A stretch of DNA of 64,000 nucleotides from Gilvimarinus gilvus. Its GTDB lineage: Bacteria > Pseudomonadota > Gammaproteobacteria > Pseudomonadales > Cellvibrionaceae. The position numbers and the translations under genes are program-made. Each line of letters opens with the position of its first letter. The first letter of the stretch is position 1. The stretch lies in NCBI RefSeq assembly GCF_030518155.1, contig NZ_JAULRU010000514.1, positions 62,001-126,000 on the forward strand. Direction: 5' to 3'. This document shows positions 34,198-56,930 of this stretch, one piece after another. Under the pieces are notes generated by a model. It saw only the letters and a list, made by a program, of their open reading frames with translations. It was not told the origin of the DNA and did no database searches.

Positions 34198-34590
34198 GCT
34201 ATCGCTTCTAGCAAGTAGAAAAAGGCCACCCACATTTTTACTCGTCATTTACGGTGGCCGTTAGATCACGTTGCTTCGTTGTCTTAGACCCAAAGCGCTT
34301 CGTGGGGCCGATCCTGCCAACTTGCCTCCAGCCCAAGCCTCATGGATGTTCTTGCTCATCAGCTCGCAGCTTTGCGTCCGGCTTCCTTCAGACCTACCCT
34401 CGCGGGCTGGACCTTGCTATGCGCTAGTAGTTATCGTTTAATTACTACTTTGTTGTCGATGGTGATATTCCTACCGAGGACTGTCACCTCATTAGTTGAT
34501 GCCCATACCGGGTGTAAGCAAGGTTATAACGGCGTTAAGCGCCCTGTTCAGCAGAGGTTCATTCTTCATAGGGATAATATCAAATTTTAA
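34198..34590. other. gene-poor accessory DNA
   Basis: No supported gene. GGCCACC/GGTGGCC (34225-34255 region) forms a 7-bp stem directly followed by GTTAGAT, and TATAACGGCGTTAAGC (34527-34542) resembles the right end of an attC site, but no partner R'' half was found for either. An 82-codon ORF at 34342-34590 shows no protein-like features. Confidence 0.4.
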
Positions 34591-49694: not shown

Positions 49695-50201
49695 CTAGTC
49701 TGATTGCCCGAGCGGGTCGAGTGCGACTAAGTCATCGATATCGCGCTGAGTCACCAACCTATCTAGTGATTGGCCGCCAGGCAGTGTGAGGCCCGGTGCT
49801 ATGTTTGCCAAAGGCACCAGTACAAAGTTTCGCTCGGTAAGGTAGGGGTGAGGCACCTGCAAGCGCTGAGTGTCTATGGTTTGATTGCCGTACAACAGTA
49901 TGTCCAGATCAAGCGTACGGGGCCCCCAGTGCTGTTTGCGCTGGCGTCCGTGCAGCTGCTCAATCGCTTGCAGTTGATCGAGCAGTGCGTGGGCTTCGAG
50001 GTTGGTCTCCATGCAGGCCGCGGCGTTGATGAAGTCGGGTTGATCCTGCGGTCCAACTGGCTTGCTGCGATAAAATGGCGATACGTTAACGAGGCGCGAG
50101 CCCGGGATGCGGCTGAGTTCTTCAAGAGCGCGGTTAAGTTGCGCTAGCGGTTCCTGTAGGTTACTGCCGAGCCCTAGGTAGGTATAAACCGGATCGCTCA
50201 C
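49695..50201 (-). CDS. folK: 2-amino-4-hydroxy-6-hydroxymethyldihydropteridine pyrophosphokinase
   Basis: 168 residues. HPPK of the folate pathway. YLGLGSNLQEPLAQLNRAL at the start, PVGPQDQPDFINAA, then RTLDLDILLYG (Mg-binding Asp pair) and PHPYLTERNFVL. Start overlaps the pcnB stop by 4 nt. Confidence 0.96.
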   Translation of the reverse strand: MSDPVYTYLGLGSNLQEPLAQLNRALEELSRIPGSRLVNVSPFYRSKPVGPQDQPDFINAAACMETNLEAHALLDQLQAIEQLHGRQRKQHWGPRTLDLDILLYGNQTIDTQRLQVPHPYLTERNFVLVPLANIAPGLTLPGGQSLDRLVTQRDIDDLVALDPLGQSD

Positions 50202-51514
50202 TCCGGGTCCCGTTTCTTGCGGTAGTTGCCTTTCGAGCCGCGCTTTTTGGTGCCCCCTTTGACAGATGCCATCATACTTTGGCGCTCTTGCTCATCGGCC
50301 ACCTGAAATTGTGTCCACCAGGCGCCCAAACCGCCGAGGGATTCACCAGAGTCCTCTCGTAGCAATAAGAAGTCGTAGGCGGCCCGGAACCTGGGATGCT
50401 CCAACATCTTAAAGGCGCGGTTGCCGGACCTCAGTGTGAGTCGATGCTGCAAATCCCAAATTTCCCGCATGGGGATTAAAAATCGTTTGGGAATGGAGGT
50501 TCTTGCCAATTGCTGGCTAACGGCATCGGAAGCCGCCTGAGCAAACGCCTGACCTTTGGGTAAGCCCTGAGTTTCTCTCATTATGGCCTGCTGTGGCGGC
50601 CACAACAGCGCGGCAAAAATAAACGCCGGGGTAATAGATTTGCCAGAGCGGATGCGTTTGTCGGTGTTGCTCATGCAATACTCGGCCATGGCTAAGGCCT
50701 GTTCATTGCCCTGCTCAATTAAGGCGTCTATGCCGGGGAATAACTGACCCAGTAACTTGTATTCACGCAGTAGAGAAAAGCTCGCCGTGGCCGAGCCATT
50801 GAGAAACAACTTAAGTACTTCCTCAAAAAGTCGTGCCGGCGGTATGTTGGCCAATAGGGGGGCCGTAGAGCGAATCGGTGCTTCGGTGCCTTTTTCCAGC
50901 GTAAAGCCTAATTTGGCGGCAAACCGAACCGCCCGCAGCATGCGTACAGGGTCTTCCTGATACCGAGTCGTCGGATCGCCAATCATGCGTAGGGTGCGTT
51001 TTTCTAAGTCTTTGATGCCGCCGGTGTAATCATGCACGGCAAAGCCATCGAGTGAGTAGTACAGGGCATTGACGGTAAAGTCGCGGCGCACAGCGTCTGA
51101 ATGCACTGTGCCAAAGACGTTGTCACGCAATACCATGCCGTGCTCGCTGCGAGCCGTTTCGTGATGGCCCCGGAACGTGGTTACCTCAATAATCTCGCGG
51201 CCAAAACGCACGTGAACGATCTTAAAGCGCCGGCCAATAATGCGGGCGCTGCGGAATAGGCTTTTTACTTGTTCGGGTTTGGCATTGGTCGCCACGTCAA
51301 AGTCTTTAGGGTGGCCTCCAAGCAGCAGGTCGCGTACGCCGCCGCCTACCAGGTAGGCCTCGTAGCCATGTTGATTCAGCTGTTTCATTACCCGTACGGC
51401 GGCCTGACTGATCAGCTTACGCGATACATTATGTTGATCGCGAGGGATGATGAGTGGCTGTTGGTGGTCCGAATCGTTGCGGTTGGAAATCAGTTTGAAC
51501 AGCCGTTTTAACAT
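50198..51514 (-). CDS. pcnB: poly(A) polymerase I
   Basis: 438 residues. Adds poly(A) tails that trigger RNA decay. Nucleotidyltransferase motif LVGGGVRDLLLGGHPKDFDVAT, then RRDFTVNALYY and RMIGDPTTRYQEDPVRMLRA, with a C-terminal PolyA_pol_RNAbd domain and a basic tail (KGGTKKRGSKGNYRKKR). Downstream of the CrcZ-like RNA, as in Pseudomonas. Confidence 0.97.
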   Translation of the reverse strand: MLKRLFKLISNRNDSDHQQPLIIPRDQHNVSRKLISQAAVRVMKQLNQHGYEAYLVGGGVRDLLLGGHPKDFDVATNAKPEQVKSLFRSARIIGRRFKIVHVRFGREIIEVTTFRGHHETARSEHGMVLRDNVFGTVHSDAVRRDFTVNALYYSLDGFAVHDYTGGIKDLEKRTLRMIGDPTTRYQEDPVRMLRAVRFAAKLGFTLEKGTEAPIRSTAPLLANIPPARLFEEVLKLFLNGSATASFSLLREYKLLGQLFPGIDALIEQGNEQALAMAEYCMSNTDKRIRSGKSITPAFIFAALLWPPQQAIMRETQGLPKGQAFAQAASDAVSQQLARTSIPKRFLIPMREIWDLQHRLTLRSGNRAFKMLEHPRFRAAYDFLLLREDSGESLGGLGAWWTQFQVADEQERQSMMASVKGGTKKRGSKGNYRKKRDPE

Positions 51515-51677
51515 GTAGGGTTCTGTATTAGTAGAGTAGAAAAAATTAGTTGTTATTGGCTATGTGCCCCAGGCGCAGAAATTGCCGGATACGCTGCCAC
51601 TGAGTCAGGATTCTAGCATGGCCTGCCGGCAGGCGGAAGTTCGGTTGAGTATCACAAATACGTATGGGCCAGACAGC

Positions 51678-51704
51678 AAAACGGGAAAGCCTTGGCTTTC
51701 CCGT
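51678..51704 (-). terminator. intrinsic terminator of the CrcZ-like RNA
   Basis: ACGGGAAAGCC (51681-51691), loop TT, GGCTTTCCCGT (51694-51704): a perfect 11-bp stem; on the minus strand it ends in GTTTTGC. Confidence 0.85.
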
Positions 51705-52078
51705 GAGAATGGGCGGCACTTCTTTTTTGTGGCCGAGGATCTCGGCTGTGTGCACTGTTCCAAATTTGAACAGCTAATGGATTTTTACAAATCCTGCATC
51801 CCTGCCCATTCCGATCAATTGCGATCCCTAGGTGCCTAGTCAGTCTAAAGCTTGTCTTCTTATTATCTTTGTTCTTATTATTTTTCGTTATTTTTACTAA
51901 TGTTCAGTTTCTTATTATTTGTTGTTTTTGTTGTGTTTCCGTTTCTTATTGTTTGTTGTTGTTATTATGTTCTTAATTACTTTTCTAATTGTTTATTGTT
52001 GTTATTAAATTGTTGAACTTTTCTTATTATTTGTTGTTGTTATTAAGTAAGCTTTTTTATTGTTTGTTGTTGTTATGC
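51678..52078 (-). ncRNA. crcZ: CrcZ-like small RNA (Hfq/Crc-sequestering)
   Basis: A 401-nt minus-strand RNA is deduced between a sigma-54 promoter (52091-52106) and an intrinsic terminator (51678-51704). It begins GCATAACAACAAC and carries at least six A-rich blocks with AAYAAYAA motifs (plus-strand 52058-52075, 52024-52045, 51990-52007, 51945-51968, 51912-51932, about 51870-51880), the CA motifs to which Hfq-Crc binds. In Pseudomonas, CrcZ (about 400 nt) is encoded between cbrB and pcnB and is activated by CbrB: position, length, promoter type, 5' end and motif content all agree. It would relieve carbon catabolite repression. No protein is encoded here; the 91-codon ORF at 51564 on the other strand is not protein-like. 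Confidence 0.88.
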
Positions 52079-52090
52079 ACGCCCAATAAA

Positions 52091-52106
52091 GCACTTGCTG
52101 TGCCAA
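52091..52106 (-). promoter_or_regulatory. sigma-54 promoter of the CrcZ-like RNA
   Basis: On the minus strand TTGGCACAGCAAGTGC has the invariant GG and GC separated by 10 bp, with the preferred TTGGCAC at -24. Position -12 is at about 52091, giving a start at 52078-52080. Confidence 0.85.
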
Positions 52107-52186
52107 TGTTGATTTTATCAATAAAATCAATGACATAACTTTTTGAGTGTTGCCCTTATTCACTTTGGTTATTTCGAACGGTTACA

Positions 52187-52387
52187 CCATTTTCCCTTTG
52201 TTGTTACGTTTCTGGTGTTGGGGTAACAAATCACCCATCGGGTTTTGTGTGTGGTGTGGTAACGCTTTGGCACAATAGTGCGCCTGCATTAGTGGTGGGC
52301 GTTACCAAGGTGTGTTGTAGGGGAAGGTATTTTGTGCCAATAAGGCGTACAGCGTAACGCTGGAGGTTACGCGGTTGTAGCGTAAGT
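52187..52387. promoter_or_regulatory. cluster of GTTAC/GTAAC half-sites, candidate CbrB upstream activating region
   Basis: TGTTAC (52202-52207) and GTAACA (52223-52228) form a 15-bp-spaced palindrome like the CbrB-binding consensus reported in Pseudomonas (TGTTAC, about 14 bp, GTAACA). Further half-sites: 52189 (GGTTAC), 52258 (GGTAACG), 52310 (CGTTACC), 52353 (CGTAACG), 52365 (GGTTACG). They lie 85-290 bp upstream of the sigma-54 promoter, the usual distance for enhancer sites. No gene lies in 52107-52469. Confidence 0.72.
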
Positions 52388-52469: not shown

Positions 52470-53873
52470 TTATTTCGCGGTGGACTTCTGACGCGGAATA
52501 CCAAATCGTTGGCGCCTCTCCCACAGGCATTTTCGACTTACGCCCAGCTTTTTCGCCAGTTCAGTCTCACTCATAGTGTCTTGATGTTCCAATACGAAGC
52601 GTTGGAAATACTCTTCCAGTGACAGGTCTTCGCTAGGGTCCTGATGTCTGGGCGCAGTAGACAGGCGCTTAATACCTGCAGCATAGGGATCATCACCTTC
52701 GTCATGCTCGTCAAGGTGGACGAGGTCAAGGTCTATGTCGAGCAGTTCGTGGCCGATCTCTCGCTCGTCTTCACACAAGATAACGGCGCGCTGCATGGCA
52801 TTTTCGAGTTCACGCACATTGCCGGGCCAGGTGTAAGTGGTTATGGCCTGAATGGCTTCAGGTGAGAGTTTCAGGCTCGATTTGTTAAATTGATGGCAGT
52901 AGCGAATCAGCAGGGCTTCGGCGAGCTTTAGGATGTCGCGGCCGCGCTCGCGAAGCGGGGGCAGCTCTAGCTGTACGACGTTGATCCTAAAGTATAAATC
53001 TTCCCGAAATAGCCCCTCTTTGGCAAGCGCACGCAAATCCCGGTGAGTTGCTGCAACCAGACGCACATCTACTTTGCGAGACTCTACCGAGCCCAGCGGA
53101 CGCACTTCGCCCTCTTGCAGTACTCGGAGCAGGCGGGCTTGAGCTTCGAGAGGAAGCTCGCCAATTTCGTCGAGAAATAGCGTGCCACCATCGGCGGCCG
53201 CGACCAGCCCTTCGCGAGTACTCGCAGCGCCGGTAAAAGCCCCTTTTTCGTGACCAAATAGCTCTGATTCAATCAGGGTTTCGGGGATCGCGGCGCAGTT
53301 GACCGAAATCATCAACTCCTTCTGGCGCTTACTTTGTTCGTGCAGCGAGCGGGCAACCAGCTCTTTGCCGGTGCCGGTTTCACCGTGTACCAGTACGGTC
53401 GCGTCAGTAGGGGCGACCTTGGCGATACGCGAATACAGGCTTTTCATGACGTCCGAGGAGCCAATCATACCGCTGACTTTGTTGTCGCCGGTGTTGCCGG
53501 GCTGATTGGCTTTGATGCTGGCCTGAGCCTTGCCGATCACCCGTTTAACCGCGCTGACCATCTCGTCGTGATCAAAGGGCTTGGCGATGTAGTCCACCGC
53601 CCCCATGCGCATAGAGTCGACCGCCGAGCGCAGACTGGCGTAACTGGTCATGATCAGTACGGGCACGTCGCCCGCCAACTTGATTAGGTCGGTACCCGGA
53701 GCGCCGGGAAGGCGCAAATCGCTGATGATTAGGTCAAAATCCGTAATCGTAAATTTGGCTGTGGCCTCGCGTACCGAGGGCGCCTCGCTGACCTCATACT
53801 TGTTGCGTTCGAGCAGCTTGCGCAATGCGTTACGGATAATCGCTTCGTCTTCTACTACCAGGATTTTGCTCAT
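52470..53873 (-). CDS. cbrB: sigma-54-dependent response regulator CbrB
   Basis: 467 residues: receiver (about 1-120; acidic pocket VVEDE, phospho-site in LIISDLRLPG, KPFDHDE), AAA+ domain (GETGTGKELVARS, the sigma-54-binding GAFTGA loop in KGAFTGAASTREG, GGTLFLDEIGELPL) and a Fis-type HTH (MSETELAKKLGVSRKCLWER). Partner of CbrA 15 nt upstream; should activate the CrcZ-like gene directly downstream and carbon/nitrogen use genes. Confidence 0.95.
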   Translation of the reverse strand: MSKILVVEDEAIIRNALRKLLERNKYEVSEAPSVREATAKFTITDFDLIISDLRLPGAPGTDLIKLAGDVPVLIMTSYASLRSAVDSMRMGAVDYIAKPFDHDEMVSAVKRVIGKAQASIKANQPGNTGDNKVSGMIGSSDVMKSLYSRIAKVAPTDATVLVHGETGTGKELVARSLHEQSKRQKELMISVNCAAIPETLIESELFGHEKGAFTGAASTREGLVAAADGGTLFLDEIGELPLEAQARLLRVLQEGEVRPLGSVESRKVDVRLVAATHRDLRALAKEGLFREDLYFRINVVQLELPPLRERGRDILKLAEALLIRYCHQFNKSSLKLSPEAIQAITTYTWPGNVRELENAMQRAVILCEDEREIGHELLDIDLDLVHLDEHDEGDDPYAAGIKRLSTAPRHQDPSEDLSLEEYFQRFVLEHQDTMSETELAKKLGVSRKCLWERRQRFGIPRQKSTAK

Positions 53874-53888
53874 AGTACGTCTCGGACT

Positions 53889-56800
53889 CTATTGCTCTGT
53901 GCCACCTTCATAGCTCGCTTCCGATACGACGGGAGTACCGGTTAGCAGAGAATTAAGATGTCGGGGCAGCTTGATCAATATCTGTGCCCCGCGATTTCTG
54001 TCGCGATCTACCGGGCTGACAATATCCAGTGTGCCCCCGTGATCATCGACGATGCTGTATACCAAGGCCAAGCCAAGGCCGGTACCCTCTCCGGGGTCTT
54101 TTGTGGTGAAAAACGGTTCGAGGATCTGGTCAATATGCTCCTCGGCAATACCTTCGCCGTCGTCCGTAACGGTGATGGTGATATTGTCATCATCTTCAGA
54201 GCTTTCTAGGATAACACGTCCTTCCACCTCGCTGGCATCCCGGGCGTTGGACAAAAGGTTGATAAAGACCTGGATCATCTTCTGCTGGTCGCCGGCGATA
54301 ATGGCATTGACCGCGATTTCATTGTCATAGTAAACGTATTTTTTGTCTTTTTGCAGCGACAGGAGGGAGATGGCCTCGGCCGCGCACTCTCTGAGAATGA
54401 CGGCTTCAAAGGCACTTTTCTTGTTCTGTCCGCTGTGCGAATAGCTGACCAGCGACTGTACAATACGGGTGACGCGGTCCGTTTGGCTCAGAATCTGATC
54501 CGCGGTGTCCAGCACCTCGGGGTTGTCGGTGTCGTAGCGAAGGTTCTGGCAGAGACAGGCAATGCCCGTAATGGGGTTGCCAATTTCATGCGCGACACCG
54601 GCGGCGAGTCGCCCCACTGAGGCCAGACGCTCAGAGTGAATCAGCTCCTGCTCAAGCAGTTGGGTTTCGGTAACGTCCTCTAACAATATTACCTGGTCAT
54701 CTTCCACCTTGGCATAGCCAGGCTGAGGCACGCGGCGGCTGGAAGAGGGGCCTTCAATCGCGGCTTTGTGCAGACTGATCCAGTGCGGGCGCCCCCCCAG
54801 ATTAATTTCATGGCGATATAAGTGTGCGTCCTCGCCCTGGCTAAAGTTCCCCAACAGCTCACACCAAGGTTGCGCCAAATCGTCAAGGTGGGAGCCAATA
54901 ACGTCATCTGAAGTAATGCCTGTGAGCACAGCCATTGCCCGGTTCCACATCAGAATTTCTTTGTCGCGGCCCAGCGAGCACACCGCCATAGGCAGCTCTT
55001 GCAGCGTTTTGCGATGATACAGTCGCAAATTGTTTAACTCCGCGGCCATACCCGTTAAGTGGCTGCGGTACTGGGATAAGCGGTTTTCGATCAGGTTAAT
55101 ATCGACGGTATCGCGCGCCTCGGCCAGTTTATAGGGCAGGTGGTTGTCCATAATCTCGCCGGCAACGTGAATACCGATAAGGCCCGACAAGTTGGCCTCC
55201 AGTTGGTCGCGCAGGCGACGCAGCGCGTACGGGCGTCGCTCGGAAATGGACAGGCCGAGCTGGCGCAGTGCTAAATCTACCTCGCGACTGGCGGTTACCT
55301 TACCCAGTGGTTTAGCCAGCCGGCTTTTAAAGTCACCGGCCGAGTGTACATCCAGTGCCTGGCGTACCGGGTGGGATAACTCGTCGGCGGCGCACAGTTC
55401 GGCACTGTAGGCCTCTTCTTCGGTCTGGCGGGTTAACATCGACACCCCGACAAATATCAAGGTATTGAGGCCGAGAGAAATTAGGGTGATTTCACTCCAG
55501 TGGCTCATACCAACGCTGAGGCTGCCGTCGCCGAAGGGAACTGCAATGTCTTCGATTCCGGTCAACATTGGCACCAGCATGCCCACGGCCCATACAATGG
55601 TGCCGGCGGTTAAGCCCGCGATAACACCACGACGATTGCCTCGCATCCAAAAAACTATGGCAAAAATACCGGGCAAAAATTGCAGCGTTTCAATAAAGGC
55701 CACCAGCGCCAGATGAAATAAACTCTGGCGGTTGTCCAGCATCCAGTAAAACAGGTAGCCGCCCACAAACAGTGAGGTAATAACGGCGCGCCGTAGCCAA
55801 ACTAGCTGGCTGTAGATGTCCTGACGTCGGCGCAACCGCAAAAACGGCAACAGCCAGTGATTCATAACCATCGTGGACAGCGCCAGGGTGATTACCACCA
55901 CAGCGCCTGTGGATGCGGATAGGCCACCGATAAAGGCGATAATCGTTAAAACGGGAGATTCCGCCAATATGGGAACGCCAATGGTGAAATACTGGGCCGG
56001 CAACGGCACCGATAATTCAAACCCAGCCCAGAGAATAGGGAATATCGGCAGCGCCAGGAACAGTAAGAATAAGGGGAAGGCCCAGGTCACGGTGCGGGTG
56101 TTGCGCAAGATAGGATTTTCAGCCACGCCCATATGAAAAATATGCGGCATGGTGACAGCGGTGGCGACAAACACCAGCAATAGCGTGTGCGAGGCACCTT
56201 CGCGAATGGGTGAGTGCAATAGCGCTAAATTTTCCGGGTTGCGTTCCAGCCAGTTTTCCAGCCCGCCAAAGCCGTCAAAGACGCCGTATACAGCCAACAG
56301 GCCAATGGCCATCAACGAGAAGACTTTAATCAGCGATTCAAATGCCATGGCGGTTATCAGGCCGCGATGACGCTCCCGATTGGAACCAAATAGCACCGTG
56401 AACAGCGCCAGAATACCGCAGTAGGTTAGTGCCATCAGGTCTTTGAAGGTGAGGCCCGTACCGACAACCGGAATCGCCGGGTCCCGGCTCACGGTCAGAA
56501 TATGCATGGTGTCGGCAATGGCCTGAATTTGCAGGGCCATTAATGGCAATATACCCAATAGCATGCACAGGGTGGTGAGCGCGCCGATACCGTGGCTGTG
56601 ATAGCGAAATACCAATAAATCCGCTAGCGAGTGAACCTGGTGGCGTCGCGCCAATTCGGTAATGGGCTCCAGCAGCACCGGGGCAAACAAAAACAGAGCG
56701 CCAGTGCCCAGATAATAGGCCAGCGCGCCGTAGCCAAACTGAAAGGCGAGGTCGATGACGCCGTAAAATGCCCAGGCGCTGGCAAAAATACCGAGCGACA

Positions 56801-56930
56801 TAACGTAGGTAATGGGGTGCTCGGTTATCTTGCGGGGGATCCAGTCGCGCTCAGTGAGAGTGGCTATGCCGAAGATAACCAGAAGGTAAAGCAGGCACAG
56901 CAGGGCAACGTGCGTCAGTTCGAAAGTCAT
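53889..56930 (-). CDS. cbrA: sensor histidine kinase CbrA with SLC5 transporter-like domain
   Basis: 1013 residues: N-terminal sodium/solute-symporter-like domain with about 13 membrane segments (1-510), a linker of STAC type (550-650), a PAS domain ([20 protein letters not shown]), HisKA with phospho-His in [16 protein letters not shown], and HATPase_c (N-box [31 protein letters not shown]). CbrA senses carbon/nitrogen status, and its Pseudomonas form can bind histidine. Start codon overlaps the cbrX stop (ATGA). Confidence 0.95.

Follow-up and report, generated by a model that had tools for sequence, protein, structure and literature searches.

The question raised by this locus is what lies in the gap between cbrB and pcnB in Gilvimarinus. 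Passages of a 2022 review (PMC8871633) describe CbrAB as unique to the Pseudomonadaceae and the cbrA-cbrB-crcZ arrangement as known only in Pseudomonas and Azotobacter, and the abstract of a P. putida paper (PMC6296734) calls the system exclusive of the Pseudomonads. The window, that is the whole stretch of DNA analysed, is 64 kb long. A preliminary description of it had guessed a Cellvibrionaceae-like host, and the genome is indeed from Gilvimarinus, placed in the Cellvibrionaceae by NCBI. We consider it highly probable (about 0.9) that the stretch in the gap encodes a CrcZ orthologue, driven by CbrB and RpoN and titrating Hfq-Crc. The sequence basis of this reading is the gene order, the promoter architecture, the array of A-rich motifs, the terminator, conservation and the RpoN, Hfq and Crc-type proteins; transcription, dependence on CbrB and RpoN, binding of Hfq-Crc and an effect on targets are attributed to it by analogy with Pseudomonas and Azotobacter.

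The minus strand of the window carries cbrA, cbrB, the RNA gene and pcnB in that order, the place downstream of cbrAB and before pcnB being that of crcZ. cbrA (53889–56930, minus strand) encodes a sensor kinase of 1013 aa with PAS, HisKA and HATPase_c domains; across 999 aligned residues it shares 49.6% identity with the frame preceding cbrB in A. vinelandii (locus L161). No Pfam transporter domain was found at E ≤ 5 in its N-terminal 600 aa, and this counts against the CrcZ-type reading. cbrB (52470–53873, minus strand) encodes a sigma-54 activator response regulator of 467 aa with Response_reg and Sigma54_activat domains, 63.6% identical to A. vinelandii CbrB. Both proteins have GxSRKCLWERRQRxGIPR in the DNA-binding end, which fits a shared binding site. 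CbrB orthologues in eight genomes of the family are 69–82% identical and the listed paralogues at most 53%. pcnB (50198–51514, minus strand), for poly(A) polymerase, matched TIGR01942 with 534.6 bits, over the cut-off. Elsewhere in the window a match to group II intron D1-D4 was seen at 34225–34409 on the minus strand.

Read along the minus strand, the cbrB–pcnB gap contains TGTTAC, GTAACA, GTAACC, an IHF-like stretch, a sigma-54 element, the A-rich array and a terminator. The minus-strand GG-N10-GC promoter with TTGGCAC that had been described previously is present as TTGGCACAGCAAGTGC at 52091–52106 (TTGGCAC 52106–52100, GG 52104–52103, then N10 and GC 52092–52091), and its TGGCAC and TGC are kept in all eight aligned Gilvimarinus. 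Three putative CbrB subsites on the same strand precede it, F1 TGTTAC at 52223–52228, R1 GTAACA at 52202–52207, 21 nt from F1, and R2 GTAACC at 52180–52185, 22 nt from R1. Their order and spacing are those of the F1-R1-R2 sites in P. putida, where passages of PMC6296734 describe a forward TGTTAC subsite followed by a pair of reverse GTAACA subsites, their centres spaced by 20–25 bp, help from IHF and, at crcZ itself, an R2 reading GTAACg. The composite enhancer-promoter pattern has a single occurrence in the Gilvimarinus genome. Two overlapping one-mismatch matches to the IHF consensus, WATCAANNNNTTR, make up the IHF-like stretch at 52125–52148; with at most one mismatch the consensus was matched in 77% of 132 promoters vs 16% of mononucleotide shuffles. 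Among these 132 distinct promoter matches, a few of which lack cbrB alongside, F1 and the sigma-54 element were separated by 120–126 nt in 113, 131–136 nt in 13, 112–116 nt in five and 101 nt in one, many of the loci having been gathered with patterns that allow only about 101–139 nt and related genomes being non-independent. Steps of about ten bases, about one turn, point to a need for the enhancer to stay on one face of the DNA helix.

The predicted RNA (51677–52078, minus strand) is 402 nt long and ends in an intrinsic terminator; CrcZ is about 400 nt long. In four Pseudomonadaceae loci (L119, L147, L152, L161) the Rfam CrcZ match starts 13 nt after the promoter GC, and in a fifth (L139) the offset is 14 nt; applying the 13-nt offset here gives a predicted 5' end at 52078, the same base as had been predicted earlier. 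Near this end lies an array of A-rich motifs of the AAnAAnAA kind expected of CrcZ, with 17 AAYAAYAA in six clusters (51875–52074, minus strand) and a repeat unit of about 34–40 nt. The first bases of the clusters are 52074, 52044, 52006, 51966, 51926 and 51882. The six blocks of the preliminary description therefore stand, while the spacing measured between them is 30–44 nt and not the 33–40 nt it gave. AAYAAYAA occurs 36 times in the whole window, 17 of these within the array, and a count of 17 was never reached when the transcript was shuffled 1000 times with its dinucleotides preserved (mean 0.80, maximum 6), as befits the repetitiveness beyond that of a random gap that had been noted before. 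Shuffling only the first 204 nt of the transcript gave a mean of 1.74 and a maximum of 8. Eight Gilvimarinus compared with one another show hardly any variation in the first block, CATAACAACAA.AAACAATAA. A coding reading of the transcript was rejected, with stops breaking all three frames.

The terminator (51681–51704, minus strand) has the arms ACGGGAAAGCC/GGCTTTCCCGT followed by TTTGC. It had been called a perfect 11-bp stem; the arms are 11 complementary bases with two between them, so physically the hairpin would have ten pairs and a 4-nt loop. It is nearly invariant in the eight Gilvimarinus, and pairing of the stem ACGGGAAAGC/GCTTTCCCGT is kept through two-sided changes across the family. 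A script found a terminator in 49 of the 57 family loci it examined and none in eight, and the predicted RNAs of loci with a terminator are 192 to 443 nt long, except for L032 (137 nt). Compared with shuffles, folding of the RNA is stronger (z −5.7), and inspection by eye places most of it in the 3' half. In that half (51850–51705), GACTGACTAGGCACC and GTGCC.CCCA are kept in the eight Gilvimarinus and could pair, with one base different in the first of the two stretches in L022. Among the rest of the family loci examined, AGGCAC recurs in L034–L042 and L044, GTGCC recurs in L061 and L063, and GGCACC was found in none.

The Rfam model RF01675, entitled 'Pseudomonas sRNA CrcZ', matched the window at 51934–51648 with 36.3 bits (E 8e-8). 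The gathering score is 95, and at that score CrcZ was not found in the window; the match was visible only in a permissive search. When 18 loci were tried, the cut-off was passed by all five from Pseudomonadaceae and by none of the 13 others, and at E ≤ 10 the model also gave matches in nine of 14 control genomes. Given that other CrcZ-type loci outside the Pseudomonadaceae also stay below the cut-off, we take the missed gathering score as a limit of the model and not as the lack of a defining CrcZ feature. This match, the CbrB subsites (52228–52180) and the IHF-like site are absent from the preliminary description and were found here. The likeness to Pseudomonas crcZ that it had claimed, in position, size, promoter class and Hfq motifs, agrees with our results and is extended by the subsites and the IHF-like site.

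The region of cbrB and pcnB was surveyed across the host family by searching 120 genomes with PcnB and examining 70 loci (30 + 40). An A-rich array adjoins cbrB or pcnB in 68 of the 70 genomes and, by our own count, in 30 of the 31 genera sampled. The enhancer-promoter pattern, slightly relaxed, was present in 59 of the 70 loci, and in 58 of these 59 at least five AAYAAYAA occur in the next 400 nt, the exception, L032, having 0. In six loci (L047, L056, L058, L068, L072, L084) the array is present and the pattern is either divergent or missing. Where pcnB is apart from cbrB or on another contig (L024, L046, L070, L073), the array was found behind cbrB (L214, L216, L218, L219). Genus g29 (L047, L058, L216) has cbrB and the array, but a search upstream of the array found no TGGCAY site, so that divergence of the RpoN promoter is possible in this genus. 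The two genomes without an array are G112 (L032) and G030 (L069), the latter with no array in the 1.5 kb behind cbrB (L220). In L032 the enhancer, sigma-54 site and terminator are kept and the whole A-rich array is gone; this is either a deletion or an assembly collapse, the genome being a draft with 6% contamination.

The predicted RNA shares with the CrcZ of Pseudomonas and Azotobacter (RF01675) its place between cbrB and pcnB, the F1-R1-R2 sites, the sigma-54 site, a length of ~400 nt, the A-rich Hfq motifs and the terminator; it differs in a primary sequence too far from the model for the Rfam cut-off and in its 3' half. A. vinelandii L161 has the same enhancer-promoter pattern in the same place. 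A. vinelandii CrcZ has six A-rich Hfq motifs according to a passage of PMC6292655, and we counted six AANAANAA clusters at L161, whereas the Gilvimarinus RNA has seven, with 29 overlapping AANAANAA vs 12. For a wider comparison 11 loci classed as Pseudomonadaceae (including L203 of family f20, taken by us to be this family), eight of Gilvimarinus and 49 other loci of its family were used. The respective medians were 6, 8 and 5 for AANAANAA clusters and 13, 28.5 and 22 for overlapping AANAANAA, all uncorrected for GC and relatedness. This suggests that the blocks in the family are longer or cleaner rather than clearly more numerous. The median of overlapping AAYAAYAA, equally uncorrected for GC and relatedness, was 13 in 59 family loci, 4 in the 11 Pseudomonadaceae and 5 in 38 loci of other families that we picked. 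The genes of CrcY and CrcX are not known to lie between cbrB and pcnB. These RNAs of some Pseudomonadaceae resemble the predicted RNA in being CbrB-activated small RNAs acting on Crc/Hfq (a passage of PMC8871633); in contrast, the Gilvimarinus genome has one copy of the pattern, and the twin promoters of Dasania and others are arranged one behind the other within the cbrB–pcnB gap.

Further points against a CrcZ orthologue are the Rfam score below the cut-off, with permissive matches in control genomes as well, the two genomes without an array, the TGGCAY site not found in g29, a Crc-like protein that is non-specific by score, and a motif that is not enriched before ATG (the last two described below). 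Other readings of the stretch have to be weighed against that of a CrcZ orthologue. The A-rich stretch might belong to pcnB as a long 5' leader, with transcription running on into the poly(A) polymerase gene and no separate RNA, since it is on the same strand directly upstream of pcnB and one more AATAACAA is found in the pcnB leader (51557–51550). However, a conserved terminator stands about 165 nt before pcnB, the enhancer-promoter serves the start of the array, and in the family genomes G084, G049, G022 and G059 about 3 to 5.5 kb separate cbrB from pcnB and the array is found beside just one of these genes; we regard the leader as very improbable. That the stretch is functionless, low-complexity filler is barely credible. 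A-rich gaps do occur in intergenic DNA, but shuffles with the same dinucleotides never reach the count of the array, and its presence in nearly all genera sampled, with promoter and terminator conserved alongside, contradicts such a reading.

A CbrB-driven RNA with an Hfq-binding array might also be a general Hfq sponge, acting without Crc as co-repressor and thus outside carbon repression of the Pseudomonas type. Hfq distal-face binding needs no Crc, the orthology of Crc is judged here from its sequence, and the array is denser than in Pseudomonadaceae (median overlapping AANAANAA 28.5 vs 13, uncorrected as above). Besides one RpoN and one Hfq, the Gilvimarinus genome encodes five PF03372 proteins, among them a Crc-like protein (L013) and ExoIII (L009). 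The best PDB match of Hfq is 1u1s (2.2e-40) and that of the Crc candidate is 4jg3 (1.7e-73), which bears the name Catabolite repression control protein; both are P. aeruginosa structures. That the candidate is full length, is distinct from ExoIII and has best matches 65–90% identical in 17 other genomes of the family argues against a sponge without Crc, which we consider unlikely. Crc was also tried as a marker of the circuit and was dropped: it was found at E ≤ 0.001 in 366 of 390 genomes of the order, and the score fails to separate Crc from related exonucleases, so that the presence of a Crc-like protein by score is non-specific.

The CrcZ-type arrangement was also sought beyond the family, in 390 genomes from 47 families of the order, with the pattern TGTTACN{13,18}GTAACN{85,110}TGGCAYN{7}GC. 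It matched 95 genomes and, by our own count, 26 families, against five genomes for the reversed control. A cbrB match lay upstream in 18 of the 26 families, one or more examples of each being inspected. No cbrB was found beside the matches examined in f7, f8, f16, f36, f38, f43, f44 and f45, and chance, promoters of another kind or truncated contigs could account for them. In two of the 18 families, at L197 (f9) and L093 (f29), cbrB, the enhancer-promoter and pcnB are present and no AAYAAYAA occurs in the next 450 nt; loss or alteration of the Hfq motif is possible in these RNAs. A stricter scan of 84,980 species, in which R2 had to end in A or C, a form chosen to exclude the GTAACG of family f20, gave 49 stretches. 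By tblastn, cbrB was upstream in 38, pcnB downstream in 37 and both in 31. Several of the misses are contig or locus ends; L140, L157 and L160 have room and gave no cbrB match by the criterion used, and both neighbours are missing at Stutzerimonas L142 and Pseudomonas L162. Named hosts with both neighbours and the pattern include Gilvimarinus, Cellvibrio, Marinimicrobium, Dasania, Oceanicoccus, HTCC2143 and Nitrincola (Oceanospirillaceae). It had been proposed that the circuit extends to polysaccharide degraders; the arrangement is borne out by sequence, and the proposed scope was too narrow, other families of the order having it too.

Tandem CbrB-type enhancer-promoters ~290–490 bp apart were observed in the cbrB–pcnB gap of L115 (Dasania), L136 (HTCC2143), L148 and L150 (Spongiibacteraceae MAGs), L112, L113, L114 and L213, and we read them as putative twin crcZ-type genes. 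A MAG labelled Klebsiella pneumoniae (L129) has a cbrB of 58.5% and a crcZ-type promoter; the label is probably wrong.

Possible repressed targets were sought in the genome sequences. AAYAAYAAN{1,14}ATG was not enriched genome-wide (223 matches vs 199 for the reversed pattern). AAYAAYAAN{0,5}GGAGN{3,9}ATG gave 65 matches in the eight Gilvimarinus genomes vs 10 reversed, a ratio inflated by a reversed control without gene starts, and many of the 65 open only short frames. A Pfam scan covered 28 frames from part of the 65, plus GH97; once frames shorter than 90 aa, the second frame of each orthologue pair and a 96-aa frame (L273) had been left out, 23 distinct frames were counted. Eight of these are carbohydrate-related (GH97, cellulase-type CelD_N, GH16/CBM6, PL14, TonB plug, BD-FAE esterase, ThuA, xylose-isomerase-like) vs four of 40 control frames, the 40 being drawn from 58 motif-free Shine-Dalgarno frames in fifteen 20-kb stretches (Fisher p 0.022). 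When only GH, PL, CBM and CelD_N were counted, the figures were 4/23 vs 4/40 (p 0.45), and a looser count gave 9/23 vs 7/40 (p 0.075). The excess is a lead only, since the classes were chosen after the candidates were known, and it is as a lead that polysaccharide genes with the motif directly before GGAG are named as possible Hfq-Crc targets. One candidate target is the Gilvimarinus GH97 (L178, L232–L234). Its leader has AANAANAA directly before GGAGAG in three of five orthologues (L232, L233, L234), with a near-match in L235 and none in L236, an example biased by having been picked from the list.

By analogy with the known systems, exhaustion of the preferred carbon source would lead CbrA to phosphorylate CbrB, which would bind the three subsites about 120 bp upstream. 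IHF would bend the DNA, and RpoN-polymerase would start at about 52078. Through its tandem AAN/ARN triplets the RNA would then bind Hfq at the distal face and titrate Hfq-Crc off the start regions of catabolic mRNAs, so freeing their translation. This mechanism is of the ordinary CrcZ kind; it is the hosts that are an unexpected and broad group. In the open-access literature, CrcZ was not found together with Cellvibrio, Marinobacter, Oceanospirillales or Gilvimarinus and co-occurs with Halomonas only in unrelated passages; subscription papers are outside this scope and priority is unproven. CbrA and Cellvibrio co-occur in a Pseudomonas virulence paper (PMC7289854).

The distribution suggests that choosing between food sources by means of such a decoy RNA has an earlier origin and a wider spread than the literature describes. 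We propose tentatively, giving it somewhat less than an even chance, that CbrAB-CrcZ-Hfq/Crc is ancestral to most GTDB Pseudomonadales (NCBI Cellvibrionales, Oceanospirillales and Pseudomonadales), with the enhancer under helical-phase constraint, tandem duplication in some marine lineages and a denser Hfq array in Cellvibrionaceae governing translation for polysaccharide utilisation (GH97, GH9, GH16, PL14 and TonB receptors, with a CA motif immediately next to the Shine-Dalgarno site). Should the circuit prove functional in this host, the carbon-choice system of pseudomonads would also steer marine polysaccharide degraders. It would be traceable by its enhancer-promoter signature where the Rfam model fell short, and would offer a handle on how agar, xylan and cellulose are ranked against simple sugars or acids.
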